16,005 nt of DNA from Opitutia bacterium UBA977 (lineage in GTDB: Bacteria; Verrucomicrobiota; Verrucomicrobiia; Opitutales; Coraliomargaritaceae). The translations under genes and the position numbers were made by a program. Positions 714 to 16,005 of this stretch are shown piece by piece. How positions within the stretch are numbered: position 1 is the stretch's first letter; each line of letters opens with the position of its first letter. Location of the stretch: positions 11,548 to 27,552 of the forward strand of contig DBBT01000027.1 in assembly GCA_002292345.1 (NCBI GenBank). The letters run 5' to 3'. The notes below the pieces were generated by a model. The model saw only the letters and a program-made list of their open reading frames with translations, had not been told where the DNA came from and did not search any database.

Positions 714-729
714 GAGTCTGATCGGACTC
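714..729. terminator. Small hairpin between convergent genes, possible weak bidirectional terminator
   Basis: An inverted repeat GAGTC / GACTC (714-718 and 725-729) with a 6-base loop fills nearly all of the 17-base gap between the stops of the plus-strand hypothetical gene and the minus-strand dehydratase gene. A transcription stop is expected here. The stem is only 5 bp and no T-tract follows on either strand, so it is not a canonical intrinsic terminator. Confidence 0.25.
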
Positions 730-2597
730 TAGCCGACGTAAGGCGTATACTCTGGAACAAATCGTTGTATCGTGCGTTTAATCTCAGTCGGATCACTCAC
801 CGACGATGCCGAACCAAGCGCAGTAGTAATCGACTCAATCGAATCCGCACACTTCTGGTCGGCCACAAACCGCATGACTCGCGGGTGGTTAGTCGGCTGC
901 AGCGTCTCACTGAGATGCTGCACCTCCTCATATAATTTCTCGCCTGGCTTCAGGCCAATAAACTTGATCTCAATATCTTCGCCTACGATATATCCACTCA
1001 GCGCAATCATCTGACGAGCCACGTCCACGATCTTCATGGATTTGCCCATATCTAGGACGAAAATCTCTCCACCGTCCCCCTGAGTCGCGCTCTGCAATAC
1101 CAAGCCGACCGCCTCATGCACCGTCATAAAGAAGCGAGTCACCTCCGGGTCGGTCACCGTCACTGGCCCACCTGCCGCAATTTGACGCTTAAAGATCGGT
1201 ATGACGCTACCCGACGAGCCCAGTACATTGCCAAACCGAACGGCCATAAATTTCGTCGTGTTTCCCTCCACCCCTTGTTGCTCCAATAAAGACAACTCGG
1301 CCAGTCGTTTACTCACCCCCATCACACTGGTTGGATTGATCGCCTTATCCGTGGAGATCAGAATAAATCGCTCCACCCCAGACGCACTCGCAAGACGAGC
1401 CAAGCCAGCAGTCGTCACAAAATTATTCTTTAACGCTTCAGCAGGTTGCGCTTCCATTAGATTAACATGCTTATGAGCCGCCGCATGAAAAATAACTTCC
1501 GGCTGAAAACGCTTAAATACTTTTTCAACCTCATCTACCTCATGCACATCTAATATCAAAGTTTGCGACAGTCGCGCAGGATCGTGCTGCTCGAGGACTT
1601 CCTGCTGCAAATCAAAAATAGCGAGCTCAGCCTGATCAATACAAAGTACCGATGCGGGCACATAATCCAACACTTGGGCCACTAGCTCGCGACCAATACT
1701 ACCTCCAGCCCCGGTCACCAGTACCCGTTTACCCGCGAGCATTCCGCGAATCTGATCCGAGTTCAGGTCGATCGTATCGCGCCCGAGTAAATCTTCCAAC
1801 TCAACCGGACGTAGCTGCGTCATCTGCGCACGCCCAGTCACCAAGTCTGTCAATGCCGGCACTGTCTCCACTCCAAGCCCTGCCTCGCCCGCCATCTTAG
1901 CTACGGCACGCACACGCCCCACGGATGCCGAAGGAAATGCGATGATCACCTTACCTGCAGCGTAGCGCTTCGCCACTTGAACCAGACCATCGACTGCATC
2001 AGCGACTAATACGCCATGCACATAGCGACCGACCTTCTTCACATCATCATCGAGGAAGGCCACGGGGCGCATGCCGAGCCGTGCTCTATGCTTGAGCTCC
2101 GAGCAAAGCCCTGCGCCGACCTCACCTGCGCCAACAATCAATACGTTCTCCATCTCATCCCAGCTAAGCCAATCTTCTAAACCACTACTTGCCTTGACGC
2201 GTAATGCTACGCGAAACCCTGCCAACAATAGAAAACTCAATAAAAAGTCGGTTAGAATCACCGCCCGCGGCGGCACGCCATTTCCATCATACACATACCA
2301 CATTGAGGCTAAAATACAGCTCGTCACAAATAAGCCTAGTGACAAGCGTACTGCATCTGGTAATCGGAAATAAGAGAGTACACAATCCATCTGGCCCGAG
2401 GCCACCAGTAACATCAGCTTCAACACCACGACCCACCAAATGGTATTAATTAAATCTAGAGCATGAGACTCTGGCACGTTGAAATCGAAGCGTAACTGAT
2501 AAGCCACGAAGTAACTCAGCCCACAAAGGAGTGCATACAATAACACCAACCCTAGGGTCCGAATATTGCAGTAACGGGATAAGATGCTAACAGCCAT
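729..2597 (-). CDS. Membrane-anchored NDP-sugar 4,6-dehydratase (PglF/WbpM/CapD-type polysaccharide biosynthesis protein)
   Basis: A 622-residue protein of the long dehydratase type that converts UDP-GlcNAc-like sugars to 4-keto-6-deoxy intermediates at the inner membrane. About four hydrophobic segments lie in residues 10-135. A first Rossmann fold begins with V-G-A-G-E-V-G near 155-162. The catalytic extended-SDR domain begins with T-G-A-G-G-S-I-G at 295-302, followed by HAAAHKHV (371-378) and STDKA (415-419). The usual YxxxK is M426-xxx-K430, the Met-for-Tyr form known from WbpM-type enzymes, so catalysis should rely on the Asp-Lys pair in STDKA. Length matches the family. It starts 15 bases after the aminotransferase stop, forming an operon whose two products act in consecutive steps. 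UDP-GlcNAc as substrate is inferred from the family. Confidence is high for family and moderate for exact sugar. Confidence 0.93.
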   Translation of the reverse strand: MAVSILSRYCNIRTLGLVLLYALLCGLSYFVAYQLRFDFNVPESHALDLINTIWWVVVLKLMLLVASGQMDCVLSYFRLPDAVRLSLGLFVTSCILASMWYVYDGNGVPPRAVILTDFLLSFLLLAGFRVALRVKASSGLEDWLSWDEMENVLIVGAGEVGAGLCSELKHRARLGMRPVAFLDDDVKKVGRYVHGVLVADAVDGLVQVAKRYAAGKVIIAFPSASVGRVRAVAKMAGEAGLGVETVPALTDLVTGRAQMTQLRPVELEDLLGRDTIDLNSDQIRGMLAGKRVLVTGAGGSIGRELVAQVLDYVPASVLCIDQAELAIFDLQQEVLEQHDPARLSQTLILDVHEVDEVEKVFKRFQPEVIFHAAAHKHVNLMEAQPAEALKNNFVTTAGLARLASASGVERFILISTDKAINPTSVMGVSKRLAELSLLEQQGVEGNTTKFMAVRFGNVLGSSGSVIPIFKRQIAAGGPVTVTDPEVTRFFMTVHEAVGLVLQSATQGDGGEIFVLDMGKSMKIVDVARQMIALSGYIVGEDIEIKFIGLKPGEKLYEEVQHLSETLQPTNHPRVMRFVADQKCADSIESITTALGSASSVSDPTEIKRTIQRFVPEYTPYVG

Positions 2598-2612
2598 AGT
2601 GAATACTTTTGG

Positions 2613-3749
2613 TTATGGCCGTCGTTGCGCAAAACACGAGCGCACAATCTCGATAACCTTCGAACGATCCTCCGCGCCCATCGCCGATCCACTCGGCAAA
2701 CACAATCCATTGGCAAACAAACCTTCCGCGCAATCCCCGCCAATCGACGCACAATCCTGAAATACTGGCTGCATGTGCAGCGGCTTCCATAGCGGTCGAG
2801 CCTCTATATCCGCATCTGCAAGCGCCTCGATGATCTGATCGCGCGAGCTCCCACCAGCCATTGGCTCGACAGTGAGGCAAGTCAGCCAGTAATTCGCCGC
2901 ATCCGGATCGACGATGGGCATAAATGCCACACCAGGCAACTCGCCCAAGGCATCACGATAGGCTTCAAAATGCACACGCTTCACAGCAATGCGTCGTTCA
3001 AGGTCATCTAACTGACTTAGACCGAGGCCTGCCAAGACGTTGCTCATCCGATAATTATAACCGACCTCGCGATGCTCATAATGTGCCACTGGCTCTTTCG
3101 CTTGAGTCGATAGAAAAAGCGCCCGCTCAATCCACGAGGCCTTATCCGCGAGCAACATACCGCCGCCCGAAGTCGTGATAATTTTATTACCATTAAAAGA
3201 GAAAAAAGAAAACGCACCCATGCTACCTGCCGCACGTCCTTTATAAGTCGCGCCCAATGCCTCAGCTGCATCTTCCACCACAGGAATATTATAGCGCTCA
3301 CACACCGCCAAAATCGGGTCCATATTCGCACACTGACCATACAGATGCACCACGATTACCGCCTTCGGCAGCTCCCCTGAAGCGGCACGCTCGCCGAGCT
3401 CCAGTTCGAGTAGAATCGGATCCATATTCCACGTGCTCGGCTCGCTATCCACAAATATTGGATCAGCACCACAGTAACAGATCGGATTGGCACTCGCAGC
3501 AAACGTCAGCGTCGGGCAAATCACTGTATCGCCCGGTTGTACATTCAGCATCTGTAGCGCAAGATGCAGCGCAGCAGTGCCAGAATTGAGTGCCACCGCA
3601 TGCTTACGGTCGGCACGCTTCGCCAGCGCCGCCTCAAAAGCCTCTAAATGCGGGCCCACTGGAGCCACCCAATTCGAGGTCAATACAGCATCAACCGCAG
3701 CATGGTCTTGCTGGCTGATATCTGGAGGCGAAAGATAAATACGGGGCAT
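2613..3749 (-). CDS. PLP-dependent sugar aminotransferase, DegT/DnrJ/EryC1/StrS family
   Basis: A 378-residue aspartate-aminotransferase-fold enzyme of the sugar-transaminase family. Visible landmarks are the phosphate-binding N-S-G-T-A-A-L-H-L region (55-63), V-V-E-D (157-160) with the pyridine-contacting Asp160, and F-N-G-N-K (185-189), where Lys189 should form the Schiff base with PLP. The R-M-S-N motif (about 234-237) is also typical. It would transfer an amino group from glutamate to the 4-keto sugar made by the dehydratase encoded just downstream, giving a 4-amino-4,6-dideoxy sugar as in PglE/PglF pairs. No acetyltransferase or glycosyltransferase is nearby, so the final glycan is unknown. 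The 131-bp gap upstream (3750-3880) should hold the promoter. It shows a direct repeat CCGTTT (3799-3804, 3815-3820), but no -35/-10 pair I would call. Confidence 0.92.
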   Translation of the reverse strand: MPRIYLSPPDISQQDHAAVDAVLTSNWVAPVGPHLEAFEAALAKRADRKHAVALNSGTAALHLALQMLNVQPGDTVICPTLTFAASANPICYCGADPIFVDSEPSTWNMDPILLELELGERAASGELPKAVIVVHLYGQCANMDPILAVCERYNIPVVEDAAEALGATYKGRAAGSMGAFSFFSFNGNKIITTSGGGMLLADKASWIERALFLSTQAKEPVAHYEHREVGYNYRMSNVLAGLGLSQLDDLERRIAVKRVHFEAYRDALGELPGVAFMPIVDPDAANYWLTCLTVEPMAGGSSRDQIIEALADADIEARPLWKPLHMQPVFQDCASIGGDCAEGLFANGLCLPSGSAMGAEDRSKVIEIVRSCFAQRRP

Positions 3750-8329: not shown

Positions 8330-11300
8330 TTGCTTACCCGCTATATAAAGAAAATACTTTCGATTGCCGCCCTATTTTTTTGGAGCGGCGTCGTTTCTAT
8401 TCACGCACAAGATGCTACTCAGCTCGGCTTCTCTGACCTGCAAGCGCAAGCCAATGTACTAGTGGAAGCTGGTCAATTGGAGCAGGCTATGCCATTCCTG
8501 AAAGAGCTAATTAAGCGCGTCGAAGCGACTGACAACTCAGAGATCCAGCTCGACTTCCCGATCTTCTTGCTTGGCACCGCTCACATTCAGCGCTACGTCG
8601 CCACTCAGAATGCCCGCGAACTCAATCAAACTCTGGTCTGGTATGCTAAGCTGGAAAAGGACTATCCAGACAGCCCCAAGGTCAAAGATGCACTCCTTAA
8701 AAAGGTCGATGTGCTACGTATCTTGAAACGCGAAGACGATGCGATCGCATTAATGAAGCAACTGCTCGATGGCACCTACTCCTTCCGCCTCAATCTCAAG
8801 CAAGAGAGTCAATTGCTCAAAGATCTCACCCAGATCCACTATAATAAAGGCGACTGGAAAGGCGGCCTACCGATCTTCACCAAGTTGCTGAACACATCGC
8901 GCGACTTTGAAGACCAAGCCTGGGCCGCAGCCGCCAGCTTCGAAGCATTTGTCGCAGAGAAACGCTTCGACGACGCGATGGCGCTGCTACCGATCCTCGC
9001 GCGCGAATCCGAAGTGCGCTACTTGCCGCGACTGAACGTCGCTCTACTAAAAAGCAGCGATACCATGGTCGCCCAAGCTCGCCTCAGCGATGCCGCTATT
9101 TTGCTCAATTTGATCAAGACCACCGACATCATGATCGAGCACAATGAAGCCACAATGGCAGACAAGCTGGTCAAGATCAAATTCAACACTGACCTGGGGC
9201 GCAATGACGAGCTGATTGAGCGCCTCAAGCAGGAAGTCAAAAACCTCGAAGCCACCATTACGCAGTTGCGCAAGCTCCCCACCCTACGCAACGAGTTGCT
9301 GGTACGCCGCGCACGTAATTACACCAAAACCGCCCGCCGCTACGAAGCTTTCTGGATGTTCTTTGATCTGATGACGGAAAATCCAAAGGACAAGCAGACC
9401 GAATTCTTCACCTACGCGACCTTCTCCAACGCTCTGCAACTCAACAAGGCCGAAACTGCCATCACTGTGGGCCGCGCCTATCGCAGGCAATTCCCCCAAG
9501 GTGATTACTACTCCGACATCAGCATGGCCCTTGTTAGTACCTTGCAAGCTGACGATGCTAACACCGCTGAGTATATGCAAATAGCCAAAGACTTCCTTGA
9601 CAGCCGTCCGCTCGACACCGCATCCAGTAGTATGCTGGCAGTCTGGGCGGGCCGCAAGATGGAGAGCGGACTATTTGTAGACATTATCCAACAGTGCAAT
9701 AGCTGGCTCAATCTGCACCAGAACCCGATTTTCGAAGACGGCCTGTTTTACTGGCGCGGCATCTCTGAATTGCAAACCAGCAAATTCGCAGACGCGATTC
9801 AAAGCTTCGACAGCCTGCTTAAGCAATATCCTACCAGCCTCTACGCCGAAGATGGACTACTGCGTAAAGGAGCCGCCCAATTTTATGCGCAGGACTTCGA
9901 ATCCGCTCGCGAGACACTCTACAGCTACACCAAGAAATATCCACGCGGCAACGCACTCGACCAAGCCTACTATTTCCTCGGCGAAGTGGAGAACCTGGCT
10001 GGCGATTACGAACTCGCACTGAAGCACTTCAAGCAGGCCGACGACATCACCTCACTGCAAGATATTCACGATGGTGCCGCTTTCAGCATGGGTAAGATCT
10101 ATGAATTACTGCAGCGCTACGAAGAAATGGCCACTCACTTCAAGGCCTACACCGACCGTTTCGGCGAAGATGGCCGTCTCACCGATGCAATCTTCGAGCT
10201 CGGTCGTGCGTATGAATTCCTCCGTCAGCCCACTCAAATGCTCGCGCTCTACCGCAAATACATCGAGCAATTTGCCAACGACCCTGAAAATGCCGGCGTC
10301 GATGCACTCATCGAAGGCTACGCTGAGAAATACAACACCAACAAAGCACAACTGGAAAAGACCGTCGAATTCCTCGACAAGCTCGACAACGATATCGAGT
10401 TCCGCACCCAAATCGTGACTGACCGCGGCTACTTGTTTGAATACTTTTACGTCAACAGCGATCTGGATCAGACACTCTACAATCGCCTGCGCAACCACCC
10501 CCAATTTGGCGAATGGTTGGTTCAAGACCTCGCACCAATCAACGAAGTCATCGCGATCTACCGTAAGCAACTGGCGGACTACCCGACCGATACGCCAGTC
10601 GAATTTTTCCGTGATCAACTCGCTCAGTTTAAAGCAAAACAGCAACGCGTGGCCGAGGCCCGCATGTTGATGGGTCTCTACCGCAGCGATGTGGAACTCG
10701 CCCCAAGCCAATCCTACGACAGCGGGTTCTTCAGTGAAGTCACCCCGCGCGTACTGCTCTATATCGCCGACTACTCGCGTGCTGACCGCCTCGATTTTGC
10801 GATCGAAGCGTGGAACGAAGTGTTGGCCACTTATCCAACCGATGATGCAGCCATCGTGTCTTACATGCGCCTCGCCGACGTCAGCAATCAACGCGGCGAC
10901 AAACCCAGTGCACTCAACTATCTCGAAGCAATTCAGGCTCAATTCCCGGGTACGCCGAAACTCCCCGGAGTCATCTTACGCCAAGGCGAACTACTCTCTT
11001 CGATGGGTCGCGGCGAGGAAGCCCGCGAGAAATATCAATATATTTTGCGCGTACCGGACTGGCGCGGCCTCGTTCACGCTCGTGCCCTGTTCCAAACTGG
11101 CGAGGCCTACATGGCTGAGAGCAAATATGCCGAAGCACATGGTTTCTTCGAGCGCACATTCCTCGGCTACTCTCAATTCAGCGAATGGTGCGCACGCGCC
11201 TACCTAGCAGATGCCGAAGCCCTTCTAGGCATGGGAGCAAAAGCCGACGCGATTGCGACACTCACCGAAGCGAACGAAACACTCGCAGAAGCTGCACCTG

Positions 11301-11374
11301 CAGCGCTCTTTGATGCCATTCAAGCGAAACTGCAAGAGTTACAACCATTAGTCGCCCCATCGCCCCAGTCATAA
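8330..11374 (+). CDS. Large exported TPR-repeat protein (1014 residues), first gene of the ExbB/ExbD operon
   Basis: The N-terminus MLTRYIKKIL followed by a hydrophobic core and S-I-H-A at 23-26 is a Sec signal peptide, with likely cleavage after Ala26. No lipobox Cys is present, so the mature protein is probably soluble in the periplasm. The body is almost entirely helical TPR-like repeats resembling the BamD/YbgF/CpoB type. Clear units lie near residues 45-62, 465-640 (repeated patterns ending in K-x-Y-P) and 830-990. A region around 655-780 fits the repeat poorly. The start is a TTG: the frame is open back to a stop at 8246-8248 with no ATG or GTG before the signal sequence. The next gene follows by 17 bases. 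TPR solenoids bind other proteins, so it is probably a scaffold or partner of the downstream motor; this role is inferred from context. Confidence 0.88.
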   Translation: MLTRYIKKILSIAALFFWSGVVSIHAQDATQLGFSDLQAQANVLVEAGQLEQAMPFLKELIKRVEATDNSEIQLDFPIFLLGTAHIQRYVATQNARELNQTLVWYAKLEKDYPDSPKVKDALLKKVDVLRILKREDDAIALMKQLLDGTYSFRLNLKQESQLLKDLTQIHYNKGDWKGGLPIFTKLLNTSRDFEDQAWAAAASFEAFVAEKRFDDAMALLPILARESEVRYLPRLNVALLKSSDTMVAQARLSDAAILLNLIKTTDIMIEHNEATMADKLVKIKFNTDLGRNDELIERLKQEVKNLEATITQLRKLPTLRNELLVRRARNYTKTARRYEAFWMFFDLMTENPKDKQTEFFTYATFSNALQLNKAETAITVGRAYRRQFPQGDYYSDISMALVSTLQADDANTAEYMQIAKDFLDSRPLDTASSSMLAVWAGRKMESGLFVDIIQQCNSWLNLHQNPIFEDGLFYWRGISELQTSKFADAIQSFDSLLKQYPTSLYAEDGLLRKGAAQFYAQDFESARETLYSYTKKYPRGNALDQAYYFLGEVENLAGDYELALKHFKQADDITSLQDIHDGAAFSMGKIYELLQRYEEMATHFKAYTDRFGEDGRLTDAIFELGRAYEFLRQPTQMLALYRKYIEQFANDPENAGVDALIEGYAEKYNTNKAQLEKTVEFLDKLDNDIEFRTQIVTDRGYLFEYFYVNSDLDQTLYNRLRNHPQFGEWLVQDLAPINEVIAIYRKQLADYPTDTPVEFFRDQLAQFKAKQQRVAEARMLMGLYRSDVELAPSQSYDSGFFSEVTPRVLLYIADYSRADRLDFAIEAWNEVLATYPTDDAAIVSYMRLADVSNQRGDKPSALNYLEAIQAQFPGTPKLPGVILRQGELLSSMGRGEEAREKYQYILRVPDWRGLVHARALFQTGEAYMAESKYAEAHGFFERTFLGYSQFSEWCARAYLADAEALLGMGAKADAIATLTEANETLAEAAPAALFDAIQAKLQELQPLVAPSPQS

Positions 11375-11391
11375 CAGCCACACACAAACGG

Positions 11392-12507
11392 ATGCGTTAC
11401 TTTTCACTCAAAGCCCTGCTCATCGTAGCCCTCTCTGTCGGTTTCTCACTTTCCGGTTTTGCAGAAAATGCCTATTGGACAGAGCTTGGCAACCAACCTG
11501 TCTATATTCAGCAAGACAACGGCCGCTCGAAGCAGACCCTTAAATTTATCGATTATAAAGATGGCATGTTGGTTGCGGAAATAACGATTGATGGCAGTGT
11601 CGGCGAAATGTCCCTCCCCGTCAGTAAGTCGATGGTCAAGACACTGCGCTTGGAATTGGGCGAGACACAAAAAGCAAACAAACTGATTCAGCAGGGCAAC
11701 TACGCTGGTGCCGTCAAAGTGCTGCGCCAAAATGTCTATCCATTGGTTAAATTTACGGAGGTGCCAGAGTTGTTCAGCCAATTACACTCGCCCGTCCGCG
11801 CCTTGATTAGCAGCTTGATCAGCGCAGGCGAACTCGCCGAAGCAGACGATCTGCTCACGCGGGTCGCTCTTGATAAGGTCGACATCAAATATAGCCAACT
11901 GAGCATACAATTGATGAACGCGTATCTCGCAGAAGGAGAGTTCAAAGCCGCGGGACGAATCGCCGGTCAACTACCTAAAAGTGGTGCGTACGCGTCCAAC
12001 ATCTCCCAAGTCGTCAATGCGGCCGATGCTCTGCGCGGTGCAGGTGAATATGAAGCGGTGATTCCACTGTATAAGGAAATCGAGAGTTCTGTCCCTGAAG
12101 ATGTGCGCAAGAATGTGCGTATGTGGCTGGCCTACAGCTTGGTGCTAGCCGACCGTGTCGATGAAGCCTCTCCGATGATCGACAGCATGCAAGAGCCAGC
12201 GCCGAATGATCGCTTATTTTCTCTCTACAAATTGCTGCAAGGCTCGCGTGAGCACCGCAACAAGCAATACAACCAAGCCCTCGACGTGCTCACTCGCGGC
12301 TTTGTGCGCGCGCAAACTTCTTACGTCTGGGTGCCAGAAATGCTCTACCTGATCGGCGATTGCTACAAACAAGCCGAAGACCCAATTGCCGCACGGAATG
12401 TCTGGTTTGAAATCACGGTACTTTACCCCGACTCCCCATGGGCCAAACGTGCCGCCGAATCACTCAGCGAACTTCCAGAACCAAAACCCGCACCGCCAAG
12501 TAGTTAA
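11392..12507 (+). CDS. Exported TPR-like protein (371 residues)
   Basis: A Sec signal peptide occupies residues 1-24, ending G-F-A with cleavage before Glu25. Residues about 28-85 look beta-rich, with short alternating hydrophobic strands (PVYIQQD, LKFIDYKDGMLVAEI) before a helical region. From about 90 to 355 the protein is helical with TPR-like pairs: G-N-Y-A-G-A-V-K-V-L near 103-112, G-E-Y-E-A-V-I-P-L-Y near 219-228, and a good C-terminal TPR ending in V-L-Y-P-D-S-P. The tail is short and Pro-rich (PEPKPAPPSS). It is the second gene of the operon, 17 bases after the first and 58 bases before the ExbB-like gene, and is expected to act in the periplasm beside the large TPR protein. I cannot name the N-terminal domain. 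Confidence 0.85.
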   Translation: MRYFSLKALLIVALSVGFSLSGFAENAYWTELGNQPVYIQQDNGRSKQTLKFIDYKDGMLVAEITIDGSVGEMSLPVSKSMVKTLRLELGETQKANKLIQQGNYAGAVKVLRQNVYPLVKFTEVPELFSQLHSPVRALISSLISAGELAEADDLLTRVALDKVDIKYSQLSIQLMNAYLAEGEFKAAGRIAGQLPKSGAYASNISQVVNAADALRGAGEYEAVIPLYKEIESSVPEDVRKNVRMWLAYSLVLADRVDEASPMIDSMQEPAPNDRLFSLYKLLQGSREHRNKQYNQALDVLTRGFVRAQTSYVWVPEMLYLIGDCYKQAEDPIAARNVWFEITVLYPDSPWAKRAAESLSELPEPKPAPPSS

Positions 12508-12565
12508 TCAATCACTTCACAAAACAACAACCCACTCAATCATTAGTCTTTAATATTAAACCGTC

Positions 12566-13354
<789 letters not shown>

Positions 13355-13379
13355 TCCAAACACCTGCGATTACTAACCG

Positions 13380-13784
13380 ATGAAAACATGGTCCCCAGAA
13401 GAAGTTGATCCGGAGTTTGAACTGACTCCGATGATTGACATCGTGTTCCTGCTCATCGCGTTTTTCATGACATTGATCAGCTTCATTAGCGCCGAACTCA
13501 TCGAGCTCAAGCTGCCAGATGCCAATCAGTCGAGCATCCCAGAAGAACCAGGCGAACGCCAATATATCTCCGTTGATGTCAGCGGTCAGGCTTATCTCGG
13601 CTCGACTCCAATCAGCTACGAAGCACTGCCCCAAGCACTAGCTACCGGGCGCGCGGCTCAGCCCTCTTTGAAGGTGTTTCTTCGAGCTGACGCCAAAACG
13701 GCACACCGTCATGTCAACCGCGTCATGGAGGCCTGCGCTGAAGCAGGCATCTCTGACCTCATTTTTGCCTCCAATAAAAATTAA
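13380..13784 (+). CDS. ExbD/TolR-family protein, first copy
   Basis: A 134-residue protein with the ExbD/TolR layout: a short cytoplasmic N-terminus, one membrane helix (about 18-38) that begins L-T-P-M-I-D-I-V-F-L-L, then a periplasmic domain of about 90 residues. Asp20 in that motif matches the essential protonatable Asp of ExbD/TolR (Asp25 in E. coli ExbD). The periplasmic part contains the usual D-x-x-G and L-R-A-D-x-x-x-x-x-x-x-V-N-R-V-M-E features near the C-terminus. The start ATG is 25 bases after the ExbB-like stop. It should assemble as a dimer, or with the second ExbD, inside the ExbB channel. There is no OmpA/MotB peptidoglycan-binding domain. Confidence 0.93.
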   Translation: MKTWSPEEVDPEFELTPMIDIVFLLIAFFMTLISFISAELIELKLPDANQSSIPEEPGERQYISVDVSGQAYLGSTPISYEALPQALATGRAAQPSLKVFLRADAKTAHRHVNRVMEACAEAGISDLIFASNKN

Positions 13785-13787
13785 ACT

Positions 13788-14222
13788 GTGGCTGCTGTTA
13801 ACAAAGTTTTAGAATCAGAAGATAAAGTCGATATTACACCGATGATCGACATCGTGTTCTTGCTGCTGGTTTATTTCATGTTTCTACCGCTGCAACAAGA
13901 GGCAGATGTGGGGATCAAATTACCCAGCGCGACCCCACCTGCCGAGAACCTCAAATTACCCAGCGAGCATGTCATCGAGATCTTCCCGAATGGCTTGATC
14001 TTGCTTAATGGTGCACCAATGGACGCTTCGGATGACCGTGTCATGGCACGTCTCTCAACCACACTTACCCGACTACGCATGTCATCGGACCGAGTGGGCG
14101 ATGATATCGTGGTAAAGATTCAGGCCGATCCGGACTCGCCGCATCAGCGTTCAATCGATGCACTAAATGCCTGTGCCAAGGCTGATATTACCAAAGTCTC
14201 GTTCACTGCATACGCGCTCTAA
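13788..14222 (+). CDS. ExbD/TolR-family protein, second copy
   Basis: A 144-residue paralogue of the preceding protein, starting with GTG only 3 bases after its stop, so translation is probably coupled. The membrane helix (about 19-38) opens with I-T-P-M-I-D-I-V-F-L-L-L, keeping the protonatable Asp at position 21. The periplasmic domain differs markedly from the first copy and has a longer linker rich in Pro (L-P-S-A-T-P-P-A-E), then a strand-helix domain ending in A-L-N-A-C-A-K-A-D-I. Both copies keeping the motor Asp suggests both are functional. They may form a heterodimer or two alternative motor forms, as with paired TolR-like proteins in other systems. No other start fits the family alignment. 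Confidence 0.93.
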   Translation: MAAVNKVLESEDKVDITPMIDIVFLLLVYFMFLPLQQEADVGIKLPSATPPAENLKLPSEHVIEIFPNGLILLNGAPMDASDDRVMARLSTTLTRLRMSSDRVGDDIVVKIQADPDSPHQRSIDALNACAKADITKVSFTAYAL

Positions 14223-14265
14223 CAAAGTCGAGTGACCCACAATCGCTCGCCTATAATTTTTTCAA

Positions 14266-15648
14266 ATGCTTCCTCCGACTAAAAAGAAAAAAATAAATCC
14301 GTTACTGCTGAAGGTTATCTTCATCAGCGTAGCGATTCATCTGCTTGCGGGGCTGATTCTCGGAAGTATTACGATTTACAAATATGTCGTCCCTTCTGAG
14401 GCGCAATTCGAAGAACCGCCCGTCGTGGAGCAAGAAGAGCCGCCACCACCAGTCAAAGTTCAGATCAGACCGCAGCAACCCAAGCAGCAAAAAGCACAAA
14501 ACCTGGCGATGCGGCCAGTGGCGAACATCGCAGTGGCGAATGTGGACGTTAATTTGCCGAACATGGAGCAGAACTTTACCGTCAGCACCGGCCTCGGTGG
14601 CATGGGCGGCGGTAGCCTACTTGGCGGCACCCGCGGCAGTATCGGCATGGGCTTGTCCGATGTCAGTGTTTTCGGTCTCAAGTCGCGCGGCGAGCGTATT
14701 CTGTTCGTGATCGATGCCAATCGTCAGATGGTCGCCGACAAAAAAGGTGGACTCAACAGCTACAAGATAATTAAGGACGAAATCACCGACATGGTCGGCA
14801 ACCTCTCCGCCGGCACCTTGTTTAATGTCATGTTACGCGATCGAAAAAAAATAATGCTGTTCAAACCTCAGCTGGTGGCAGCAGGCTCAGAAACACATCG
14901 GCAGCTGATTCAATGGATCAGTCCAATTAATGCTAGCGCTGAAAAGGTCGGGCTCGAAGGCAACCGCCTAGCTAGCACTCCTAAGCTTCGGGGACTTCCC
15001 AATGAGGAAGTGCATAAGGCCTTACCGTGGTCAGGCCACTCAGGTAACGAAACTGGTTTCATCACTCAAGTGGCATTGGAACAGCACGTGGATGCGATCT
15101 TTATGATTGCCAGTGACCACAAAGGCTTTGGCTCTGTGCGCTCCCCACCGAGCGAACGCGCACAAGCTGAATGGGCACGCAAAATCGCCAAGCGCGACTA
15201 TATTCAGCAGCTCGCCAAGCATGAGGCGGAAGTCGCTAATATGAATAAACGAATTGCTGCAACGATGGCGAAGACCAATGCGCAGCGCAAAAAGCAAGGC
15301 CTACCACCACGCGTGCTTGAAAAACGCTATGGCGTGTATTCCGCAGCCAGAGAACTTGGTCTGAATTGGACCACTGACCATCCAGGGCATGGACCAAAAC
15401 CCGAATGGCTCAAAGACAGCGATGTTTCTAGATATTTCCGCAAGCTGCTCGATGAACTTTACGAGAAGGACGATAAGCCGGTGCCATCGGTCAACGTGGT
15501 ACTTTTCCTCGCTGGCGATGAGGTATTCGACAAGAACGCGAAAACACAGCTGGATCAATTCGTACGCTTTTTCCGCGGTAAGAATCGCGTGATTCGTGGC
15601 CTCGACGAAATCACCAGTGCGAGCAGTTCAAAGACAACTAGGAACTAA
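14266..15648 (+). CDS. TonB-like N-terminus fused to a von Willebrand A-like domain
   Basis: A 460-residue protein, last in the operon. A basic N-terminus (KKKK) precedes one membrane helix (13-35). Then comes a Glu/Pro-rich stretch with E-E-P-P-P-P-V-K-V (57-65) and a basic Q/P/K segment (66-78), as in TonB. A Gly-rich segment spans 109-130. The usual TonB C-terminal domain is absent. Instead, residues about 143-440 look like a vWA fold: a buried strand I-L-F-V-I-D-A-N-R-Q (145-154) at the MIDAS position with Asp150 but not a full DxSxS, a strand V-D-A-I-F-M-I-A-S-D (275-284), and a final V-N-V-V-L-F-L-A-G-D (409-418). A charged helical insert (about 295-350) interrupts the domain. It probably takes the TonB position in the motor, anchored in the inner membrane. 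The TonB-like part is well supported; vWA is moderate. Confidence 0.8.
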   Translation: MLPPTKKKKINPLLLKVIFISVAIHLLAGLILGSITIYKYVVPSEAQFEEPPVVEQEEPPPPVKVQIRPQQPKQQKAQNLAMRPVANIAVANVDVNLPNMEQNFTVSTGLGGMGGGSLLGGTRGSIGMGLSDVSVFGLKSRGERILFVIDANRQMVADKKGGLNSYKIIKDEITDMVGNLSAGTLFNVMLRDRKKIMLFKPQLVAAGSETHRQLIQWISPINASAEKVGLEGNRLASTPKLRGLPNEEVHKALPWSGHSGNETGFITQVALEQHVDAIFMIASDHKGFGSVRSPPSERAQAEWARKIAKRDYIQQLAKHEAEVANMNKRIAATMAKTNAQRKKQGLPPRVLEKRYGVYSAARELGLNWTTDHPGHGPKPEWLKDSDVSRYFRKLLDELYEKDDKPVPSVNVVLFLAGDEVFDKNAKTQLDQFVRFFRGKNRVIRGLDEITSASSSKTTRN

Positions 15649-15676
15649 GCCAGCGACTCCACACACTTTCAAACAA

Positions 15677-15706
15677 AAGGCAGCCGAATGATTGGCTGCC
15701 TTTTTT
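15677..15706 (+). terminator. Strong Rho-independent terminator of the TPR/ExbBD operon
   Basis: A 9-bp perfect stem (AAGGCAGCC at 15677-15685 with GGCTGCCTT at 15694-15702), an 8-base loop and a run of six T (15701-15706) lie 28 bases after the last operon stop. It should end transcription of the six-gene operon. Confidence 0.93.
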
Positions 15707-15715
15707 GTGCACGAT

Positions 15716-15790: not shown

Positions 15791-16005
15791 CTAAAATCCG
15801 ACCTGCGGGATCAGTCCATCAGTCAATGATTTCGTAGCCTGATCTTTCAATGATTTCGTAGCCTGATCTTTCAATAAATCAGTCGCGGCAGCGGTCAATT
15901 CTTGCTCGGCGTCATCAATCACTGCCGCCACTTCTTCCAGCGCTTCGGCCTGAATCTCAGCAACCTCATCTTCGACCGCAGCCACGGCCTCGACTTGCAG
16001 CTCTA
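15791..16005 (-). CDS. Acidic Ala-rich hypothetical protein, C-terminal part only
   Basis: The frame is open from the right edge to TAG at 15791-15793, giving about 70 C-terminal residues; the start lies beyond the window. The visible part is strongly helical and acidic, with repeated A-V-E/A-E-V-type heptad-like patterns that suggest an amphipathic or coiled-coil helix. It then passes into a more basic segment with the 8-residue unit K-D-Q-A-T-K-S-L present twice, and ends in G-L-I-P-Q-V-G-F. I recognise no domain and cannot say where it acts. It converges on the ExbBD operon and is separated from it by the operon terminator and the REPIN-like element. Low complexity limits certainty, but the open frame and duplicated codons support a real gene. 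Confidence 0.6.
   Translation of the reverse strand, partial: ELQVEAVAAVEDEVAEIQAEALEEVAAVIDDAEQELTAAATDLLKDQATKSLKDQATKSLTDGLIPQVGF
15823..15870. repeat. Perfect 24-bp tandem duplication inside the partial minus-strand gene
   Basis: Units 15823-15846 and 15847-15870 are identical over 24 bases, beginning TCAATGATTTCG. On the minus strand each encodes K-D-Q-A-T-K-S-L, so the duplication is in frame. Perfect identity points to a recent event or continuing slippage. Confidence 0.95.

Follow-up and report, generated by a model that had tools for sequence, protein, structure and literature searches.

A six-gene operon of the marine Opitutia bacterium UBA977 (Verrucomicrobiota), contained in a 16,005-nucleotide stretch of contig DBBT01000027.1 (positions 11,548 to 27,552; the whole stretch is hereafter called the window), very probably encodes a force-generating machine driven by the proton motive force (PMF). 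An earlier note, made from the letters of the window alone, had described it as a PMF-driven envelope machine equipped with a vWA-bearing force transmitter and large periplasmic TPR proteins, and as far as sequence can tell this description holds. The work such a machine performs is suggested by a sister copy in the same genome, which is embedded in a block together with an alpha-amylase. On this basis we consider the chances about even that the window copy serves the uptake or processing of large glycans into the periplasm by means of exchangeable heads.

The six genes all lie on the plus strand in the order TPR1, TPR2, ExbB, ExbD1, ExbD2 and vWA and are followed by a strong terminator, so that the operon proposed in the earlier note is borne out by open reading frames (ORFs), Pfam matches, structure model and folding energy. 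TPR1 (8330..11374, TTG start, ORF list) is a predicted exported TPR-repeat protein of 1014 aa whose N-terminus, judged by eye, is signal-like and which matches TPR_14 (6e-14), TPR_6 (1.1e-13) and a YfiO-like family (3.1e-11) in Pfam. It is followed by TPR2 (11392..12507, ORF list), likewise a predicted exported TPR protein (371 aa; TPR_19, 3.4e-12), and by the ExbB/TolQ-like motor subunit (12566..13354, 262 aa; PF01618, 1.5e-29), which in the alignment carries an additional N-terminus resembling an export signal. Two ExbD/TolR-like proteins complete the motor. The first, ExbD1 (13380..13784; PF02472, 2.8e-25), and the second, ExbD2 (13788..14222, GTG start; PF02472, 1.7e-17), fall into different classes of the ExbD tree. 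Between ExbD2 and the last gene a hairpin with a U run is found (14226..14262, plus strand; -9.4 kcal/mol, z -4.1), the stability of which is equalled by none of 200 shuffles; possibly it acts as an attenuator reducing or setting the dose of the transducer. The operon is closed by an intrinsic terminator (15673..15708, plus strand; -20 kcal/mol, z -5.2).

The sixth protein (14266..15648, plus strand, 460 aa) is the vWA force transducer, in which ORF, structure model and fold search delineate a TonB-like N-terminus, a linker and a vWA domain. Its N-terminal helix (14299..14388, residues 12-41 of the structure model), taken as a transmembrane helix, contains Ser21 and His25, and such a Ser/His pair is what TonB-type helices use on their motor. 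Measured against the spacing of the SHLS motif of E. coli, Ser21, His25 and Leu32 are kept while the last serine is replaced by Thr36. The histidine is present in 49 of 51 aligned family members and the serine four residues ahead of it in 42 of them. A proline-rich, disordered linker leads to a C-terminal vWA domain (14653..15615, about residues 130-450, from structure model, fold search and alignment) which shows no homology to TonB or TolA. Within this domain the metal site is degenerate, reading DANRQ instead of Dx[ST]x[ST] as it is also degenerate in altogether 31 of the 51 family members, and a long helical insertion comprises residues 297-343. A first Foldseek search with the transducer model returned only three matches at E ≤0.001, headed by a hit labelled as a parvovirus capsid entry of 189 residues; the vWA assignment is based on a second look at the fold and on relatives rather than on that list. 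By sequence, the PDB yielded solely a chance antibody match (E 0.37). Searching Pfam and NCBIfam at E 0.1 produced no match of the sixth protein to the TonB C-terminal domain. The full-length alignment to ordinary TonB which the earlier note had named as the case that would speak against its proposal is thus not seen, and an identity of the protein as ordinary TonB was rejected.

Conservation of the gene order across related genomes, the check which the earlier note itself had suggested, was found as follows. A transducer profile built from 12 close relatives finds matches in 54 out of 288 genomes in the phylum, and a broader profile of 19 rows in 167 of 387 genomes, the latter count including weak matches to the N-terminal module and, in most rows, at most four scored candidates per genome. 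From these match lists 46 loci were picked by hand for spread, several of them stemming from one genome. The profiles used for labelling were derived from these same 46 loci and hence aid the naming of genes, while the order itself was read from the DNA. The complete order TPR1-TPR2-ExbB-ExbD1-ExbD2-vWA is present in 22 of the 46 loci and the motor part together with a TPR gene in eight more; the remaining 16 have no same-strand ExbB beside the vWA gene, some of them lying on short contigs, for instance L061 and L073. Gene order is accordingly conserved, and the other case which the earlier note had named as speaking against it, six genes that are rarely neighbours, did not arise. Within the family of the window the full order occurs in five fetched genomes and, at a contig end, from TPR2 onward in a sixth; genome G381 has a transducer profile match, its locus not being among those fetched, and in genome G204 the profile found no transducer. 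In the ExbD tree (30 rows) ExbD1 and ExbD2 form separate groups with support of 67/99, which is weak, and 93/96, respectively.

The genome of UBA977 (2.43 Mb, 88.8% complete) harbours three further loci of the window's kind, on contigs C97, C90 and C130. The C97 locus (L012:6148-8697) consists of an ExbB gene truncated by the contig end, ExbD1, ExbD2 and a vWA gene whose product keeps the DxSxS and TDG motifs of an intact-looking metal site; two sulfatase genes and a pectate-lyase-like gene lie nearby. At C130 (L015:2777-7434) TPR1, TPR2 and ExbB are present beside a HipA-type gene, and an adjoining ExbD gene was not found.

It is the C90 locus (L167:4264-10298 and L014:2288-10966) which offers a functional lead. 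Here a gene for a 1590-aa alpha-amylase (Pfam, 6e-59) runs divergently from a transducer gene and is followed by TPR1, TPR2, ExbB, ExbD1 and ExbD2, with the amylase and TPR1 ORFs sharing 11 bases when the first start is taken. Beginning 239 bases past ExbD2 there are genes for an exported-looking protein of 283 aa, a GH77 4-alpha-glucanotransferase (1.3e-155) and an MFS transporter, and a LacI-type regulator is encoded about 3 kb beyond the transducer. The C90 transducer (384 aa) has the SxxxH pattern in its helix and a head domain other than vWA. Although the protein itself matches no Pfam family, domains homologous to its head are contained in a Kiritimatiellota-type protein and in one that is probably from Akkermansia (106 and 153 bits), the latter of which matches Pfam PA14 at 9e-5, just under the cut-off. 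We call this head PA14-like. In G048, a genome of another genus of the same family (L175), the PA14-head gene (659 bits), the amylase (2418 bits) and TPR1-TPR2-ExbB-ExbD1-ExbD2 recur in the same arrangement, while relatives of the GH77 enzyme (MalQ), the LacI-type regulator and the MFS transporter were not found in its 19.5-kb stretch. Retention of the block between differing flanks suggests that the amylase forms a unit with the machine.

That heads may be exchanged on a common motor is illustrated by genome G172 (L176:5595-13857), where two transducers stand in tandem behind a single motor, one with a PA14-like head and one with a vWA head, their N-termini being near twins. Both have threonine instead of serine ahead of the histidine, and the PA14 match again lies under the cut-off. 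This locus is flanked by three sulfatase genes, in a type of genome that is full of sulfatases. Elsewhere (L075:5687-7570) a transducer N-terminus is continued by a PA14-like region together with an SHD1 domain (9e-7 in Pfam). If true, head swapping would be a simple route by which one machine acquires many clients.

Taken together, these features suggest the following mode of action. ExbD1 and ExbD2 would pair as a heterodimer within a pentamer of ExbB, most likely a 5:2-type motor, and proton flow would set this heterodimer, and with it the motor, in motion. The transducer, docked on the motor via its histidine helix, would relay the force through its linker to the head, which in turn may grip the large periplasmic TPR proteins, and these could connect the transducer with the outer membrane and with glycan-handling proteins. 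Judging from the sister machines, the work done would be to convey large glycans through the outer membrane into the periplasm or to process them, with the type of head, vWA or PA14-like, picking the client. The copy in the window probably represents a general, unspecialised version.

A comparable, divergent core set seems to be present in a probable A. muciniphila genome (G113, 641.8-649.1 kb), where genes for a TPR2-like and a TPR1-like protein, ExbD2, ExbD1 and ExbB are preceded by an MreB-like gene and two more genes, those two named by eye. The two ExbDs fall one into each class (67/99, weak, and 93/96). We take this TPR-TPR-ExbB-ExbD-ExbD locus to be MUL1, Mul1A presumably being Amuc_0544. 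In PMC11480725, Amuc_0540 is MreB and Amuc_0546 is listed where a biopolymer transporter is named. Counting from MreB, the TPR1-like gene is Amuc_0544 and the set extends from Amuc_0543 onward, although a 206-aa extra ORF between the TPR1-like gene and ExbD2 may shift the later gene numbers. According to two reviews, PMC12418764 and PMC12928651, mucin transport requires those MUL genes that encode pili and a periplasmic complex. PMC13174399 calls MUL1 Sus-like and not syntenic in aquatic Akkermansiaceae. With this statement, provided that MUL1 is of the present kind, contrasts the order TPR1-ExbB-ExbD1-ExbD2-vWA in G243, a genome of the same family as G113 (L169:6247-13067). In a probable A. 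muciniphila genome (L166:4713-7888) we also observed two neighbouring genes whose products combine a transducer-like N-terminus, devoid of the usual helix histidine, with a squalene-hopene-cyclase-like domain.

Several observations weigh against a role in glycan uptake and against its extension to Akkermansia. Next to the window copy no gene for glycan use was recognised. With 69 sulfatase matches in the UBA977 genome, the occurrence of sulfatases near the machines on C97 and C130 has little force as evidence. Many transducer genes lack an adjoining motor; genome G227, for example, has 22 transducer-profile matches, about half of them limited to the N-terminal module, versus 11 ExbB matches. 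At such motor-less transducers two sulfatases in L055, two sulfatase-matching genes in L057 and GH115, GH5 and weak GH43 matches had initially hinted at sulfatase enrichment, a lead which failed against control windows of the same genomes. These controls were set by hand at round-number positions, not at random, and the 20 motor-less windows include L114, in which no vWA ORF is called, and L117, which spans 9 kb only. A sulfatase is present in nine of the 20 motor-less windows and in seven of the 20 controls; among neighbour proteins, sulfatases amount to 6/70 versus 7/72 and fucosidases to 2/70 versus 3/72. Labels confined to the motor-less windows (XylR-type regulator 4 vs 0, PA14-SHD1 5 vs 0, GH43 3 vs 0 and MFS2 2 vs 0, n=20 each) carry little weight since the query proteins were taken from those very loci. 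As these neighbourhoods are no richer in sulfatases than the controls, support for a glycan role comes from the amylase block alone. Regarding Akkermansia, the G113 set is permuted, with motor genes at one end and TPR genes at the other, and no vWA gene is present in the fetched locus. The TPR1 profile scores 131 bits on the TPR1-like protein, collinear only in part, and is itself unspecific (25-45 bits on three TPR proteins of the UBA977 genome); the TPR2 profile reaches merely 15 bits. The ExbB (169 bits) was left unplaced by the ExbB tree, which has long branches. A second Akkermansia ExbB-ExbD-TPR locus is nearly equal (ExbB 154, TPR 108 bits), its ExbD even scoring 98 bits with the ExbD1 profile compared to 89 for the first locus. 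Finally, PMC11480725 places Amuc_0546 among transporter genes raised in soy versus mucin medium.

The operon is furthermore retained in genomes of the same family as small as 1.3-1.7 Mb, which fits a housekeeping role in the envelope as well. This points to Tol-Pal-like upkeep of the outer membrane, in which the vWA head would pull on partners, either TPR proteins or others in the outer membrane, so that this membrane stays attached or constricts, the glycan link of sister copies being secondary. Neighbouring genes which read as housekeeping genes (uup, recN) speak in its favour, as does TPR1, which exceeds the cut-off of the tol_pal_ybgF model TIGR02795 (NCBIfam; 112.3 vs 90.1 bits, spread over six stretches). 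The earlier note had also asked whether Ton or Tol-Pal genes exist elsewhere in the genome, and the answer is divided. Among ten ExbB-type matches there is a TolQ-TolR-TolA-like set on contig C51, and one TonB_C match and two TonB-dependent receptor barrels occur, while the OmpA family (OmpA/Pal) gave no match in the 88.8%-complete genome. The latter result favours upkeep by the operon; the separate set on C51, in contrast, argues against it. The 22 transducer-profile matches in G227 and sister machines within an alpha-glucan locus would also be odd for an upkeep system, which we therefore consider rather unlikely.

Further motor-related loci of this genome are a set on contig C87, where two ExbBs, one long and one short, accompany ExbD and TPR proteins, and one on C58 (L019:7202-9629), where an ExbB-like gene precedes two genes whose products, by eye, have an aspartate in a transmembrane-like helix. 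At least the first of the two contains a vWA-like motif, and the arrangement resembles the second vWA family described in PMC12204202. A motor-less vWA transducer on C61 (L168:248-1261), and similar genes in L178 and L179, carry glutamine at the position of the helix histidine; perhaps these are not coupled to a motor.

To force-driven secretion or pilus assembly, in which the machine would energise not import but the outward transport of enzymes or pseudopilins, we assign a small probability. A few motor-less vWA genes adjoin genes with faint Verru_Chthon/GspK-like N-termini, and between TPR1 and PorW/SprE, known from type IX secretion, there is a weak match (32 bits against a cut-off of 250). 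The pseudopilin match beside a motor-less transducer, however, amounts to about 16 bits against cut-offs of 130 and 332, few loci are concerned, and neither the operon proteins of the window nor the scanned C90 genes showed a secretin or pilin family. Slimmer still appear the chances of a motor for gliding or surface adhesion. Gliding is suggested in PMC12204202 by analogy to Myxococcus. The set of one TolQ-like and two TolR-like proteins brings AglRQS to mind, and vWA domains often adhere. Yet the metal site of the window copy is, like that of most family members, degenerate, A. muciniphila is described as non-motile in PMC12418764 though a related core set seems to be present, and the sister machine is linked to an amylase. 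It is this last link which leads us to favour glycan uptake over the gliding analogy.

Upstream of the operon the window contains, besides uup and recN, genes for a Yip1-domain protein and for polysaccharide biosynthesis. On the minus strand at 729-3749, a polysaccharide biosynthesis epimerase/dehydratase (Pfam, 8.6e-107) adjoins a DegT-type aminotransferase recognised by eye. Downstream the contig stops where the window stops; a perfect tandem repeat at 15823-15875 (24-base unit, 2.2 copies) apparently lies within a minus-strand frame leaving the contig. Rfam gave zero matches across the window. A plasmid-borne origin was rejected as tblastn against a plasmid collection returned zero matches.

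Several families of proton-gradient motors reach the outer membrane, and their vWA branch is left without a function in PMC12204202. If the sister copies do act on glycans, the PVC phyla would have an energised route of their own for large polysaccharides, alternative to SusCD. Somewhat less probable than not, in our view, is the wider proposal that Verrucomicrobiota and their kin share a proton-driven machine for large-glycan uptake which operates without SusC/SusD or a TonB C-terminal domain. It would combine one ExbB-ExbD1-ExbD2 motor and TPR scaffolds with heads that are swapped on a common TonB-like anchor, be they vWA, PA14-like or perhaps of other types. In that case MUL1 would be derived from this machine instead of having been invented in the gut. 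Such a machine would help to account for the selfish mode in which marine members take up polysaccharides and, if real, bears on the breakdown of sulfated algal sugars by marine Verrucomicrobiota and on mucin intake by Akkermansia.

Compared with known systems, the window operon shares with Ton the motor proteins and the TonB-like N-terminal helix, whereas it differs in lacking the TonB C-terminal domain, in its two ExbD classes and TPR partners and in having no receptor among its six genes. The motor proteins also resemble those of Tol-Pal, and TPR1 exceeds the YbgF cut-off; unlike in Tol-Pal, however, the TolA C-terminal domain, TolB and Pal are absent from the six proteins in Pfam and NCBIfam (TolB was not searched genome-wide). 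PADLOC found none of its families in the six proteins, so that a Zorya-like defence system was dismissed and the earlier view of the operon as not plainly Ton, Tol-Pal or Zorya is upheld. The likeness to Agl seen in the note stands with regard to the one TolQ-like and two TolR-like proteins, while the amylase-linked sister machine turns the functional analogy away from gliding. Akkermansia MUL1, if it is the locus we take it to be, probably has the same core of a TPR1-like, a TPR2-like (15 bits) and an ExbB protein and one ExbD per class, and differs by its motor genes coming first and the TPR genes last, by divergent TPR proteins and by the absence of a vWA gene from the fetched locus. As in the Sus system of Bacteroidetes, two glycan enzymes of the C90 locus, the amylase and the glucanotransferase, are joined to an envelope machine that is energised; unlike there, SusC/SusD are not among the six window proteins, and neither these nor a TonB-dependent receptor are among the scanned C90 genes. 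The closest description is that of the vWA force transducers of the PVC group by Williams-Jones et al. (Mol Biol Evol 2025; PMC12204202), which describes their genes as following TPR and tolQ-like genes and a heterologous pair of tolR-like ones, predicts docking of the transducer helix on the motor, notes 5:2-type motors known from MotAB, ExbBD and TolQR, and assigns no function. Gene position, N-terminal helix with conserved histidine, proline-rich disordered linker and a vWA domain devoid of a TonB/TolA C-terminal domain all agree, and we hence file the window operon under that kind of transducer. The window differs in its two TPR genes and degenerate metal site, and PA14-like heads and an amylase-linked machine are not among the features met in the consulted passages of that paper. 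The architecture itself is thus already in print, and what is added here is a functional lead via the link to the amylase.

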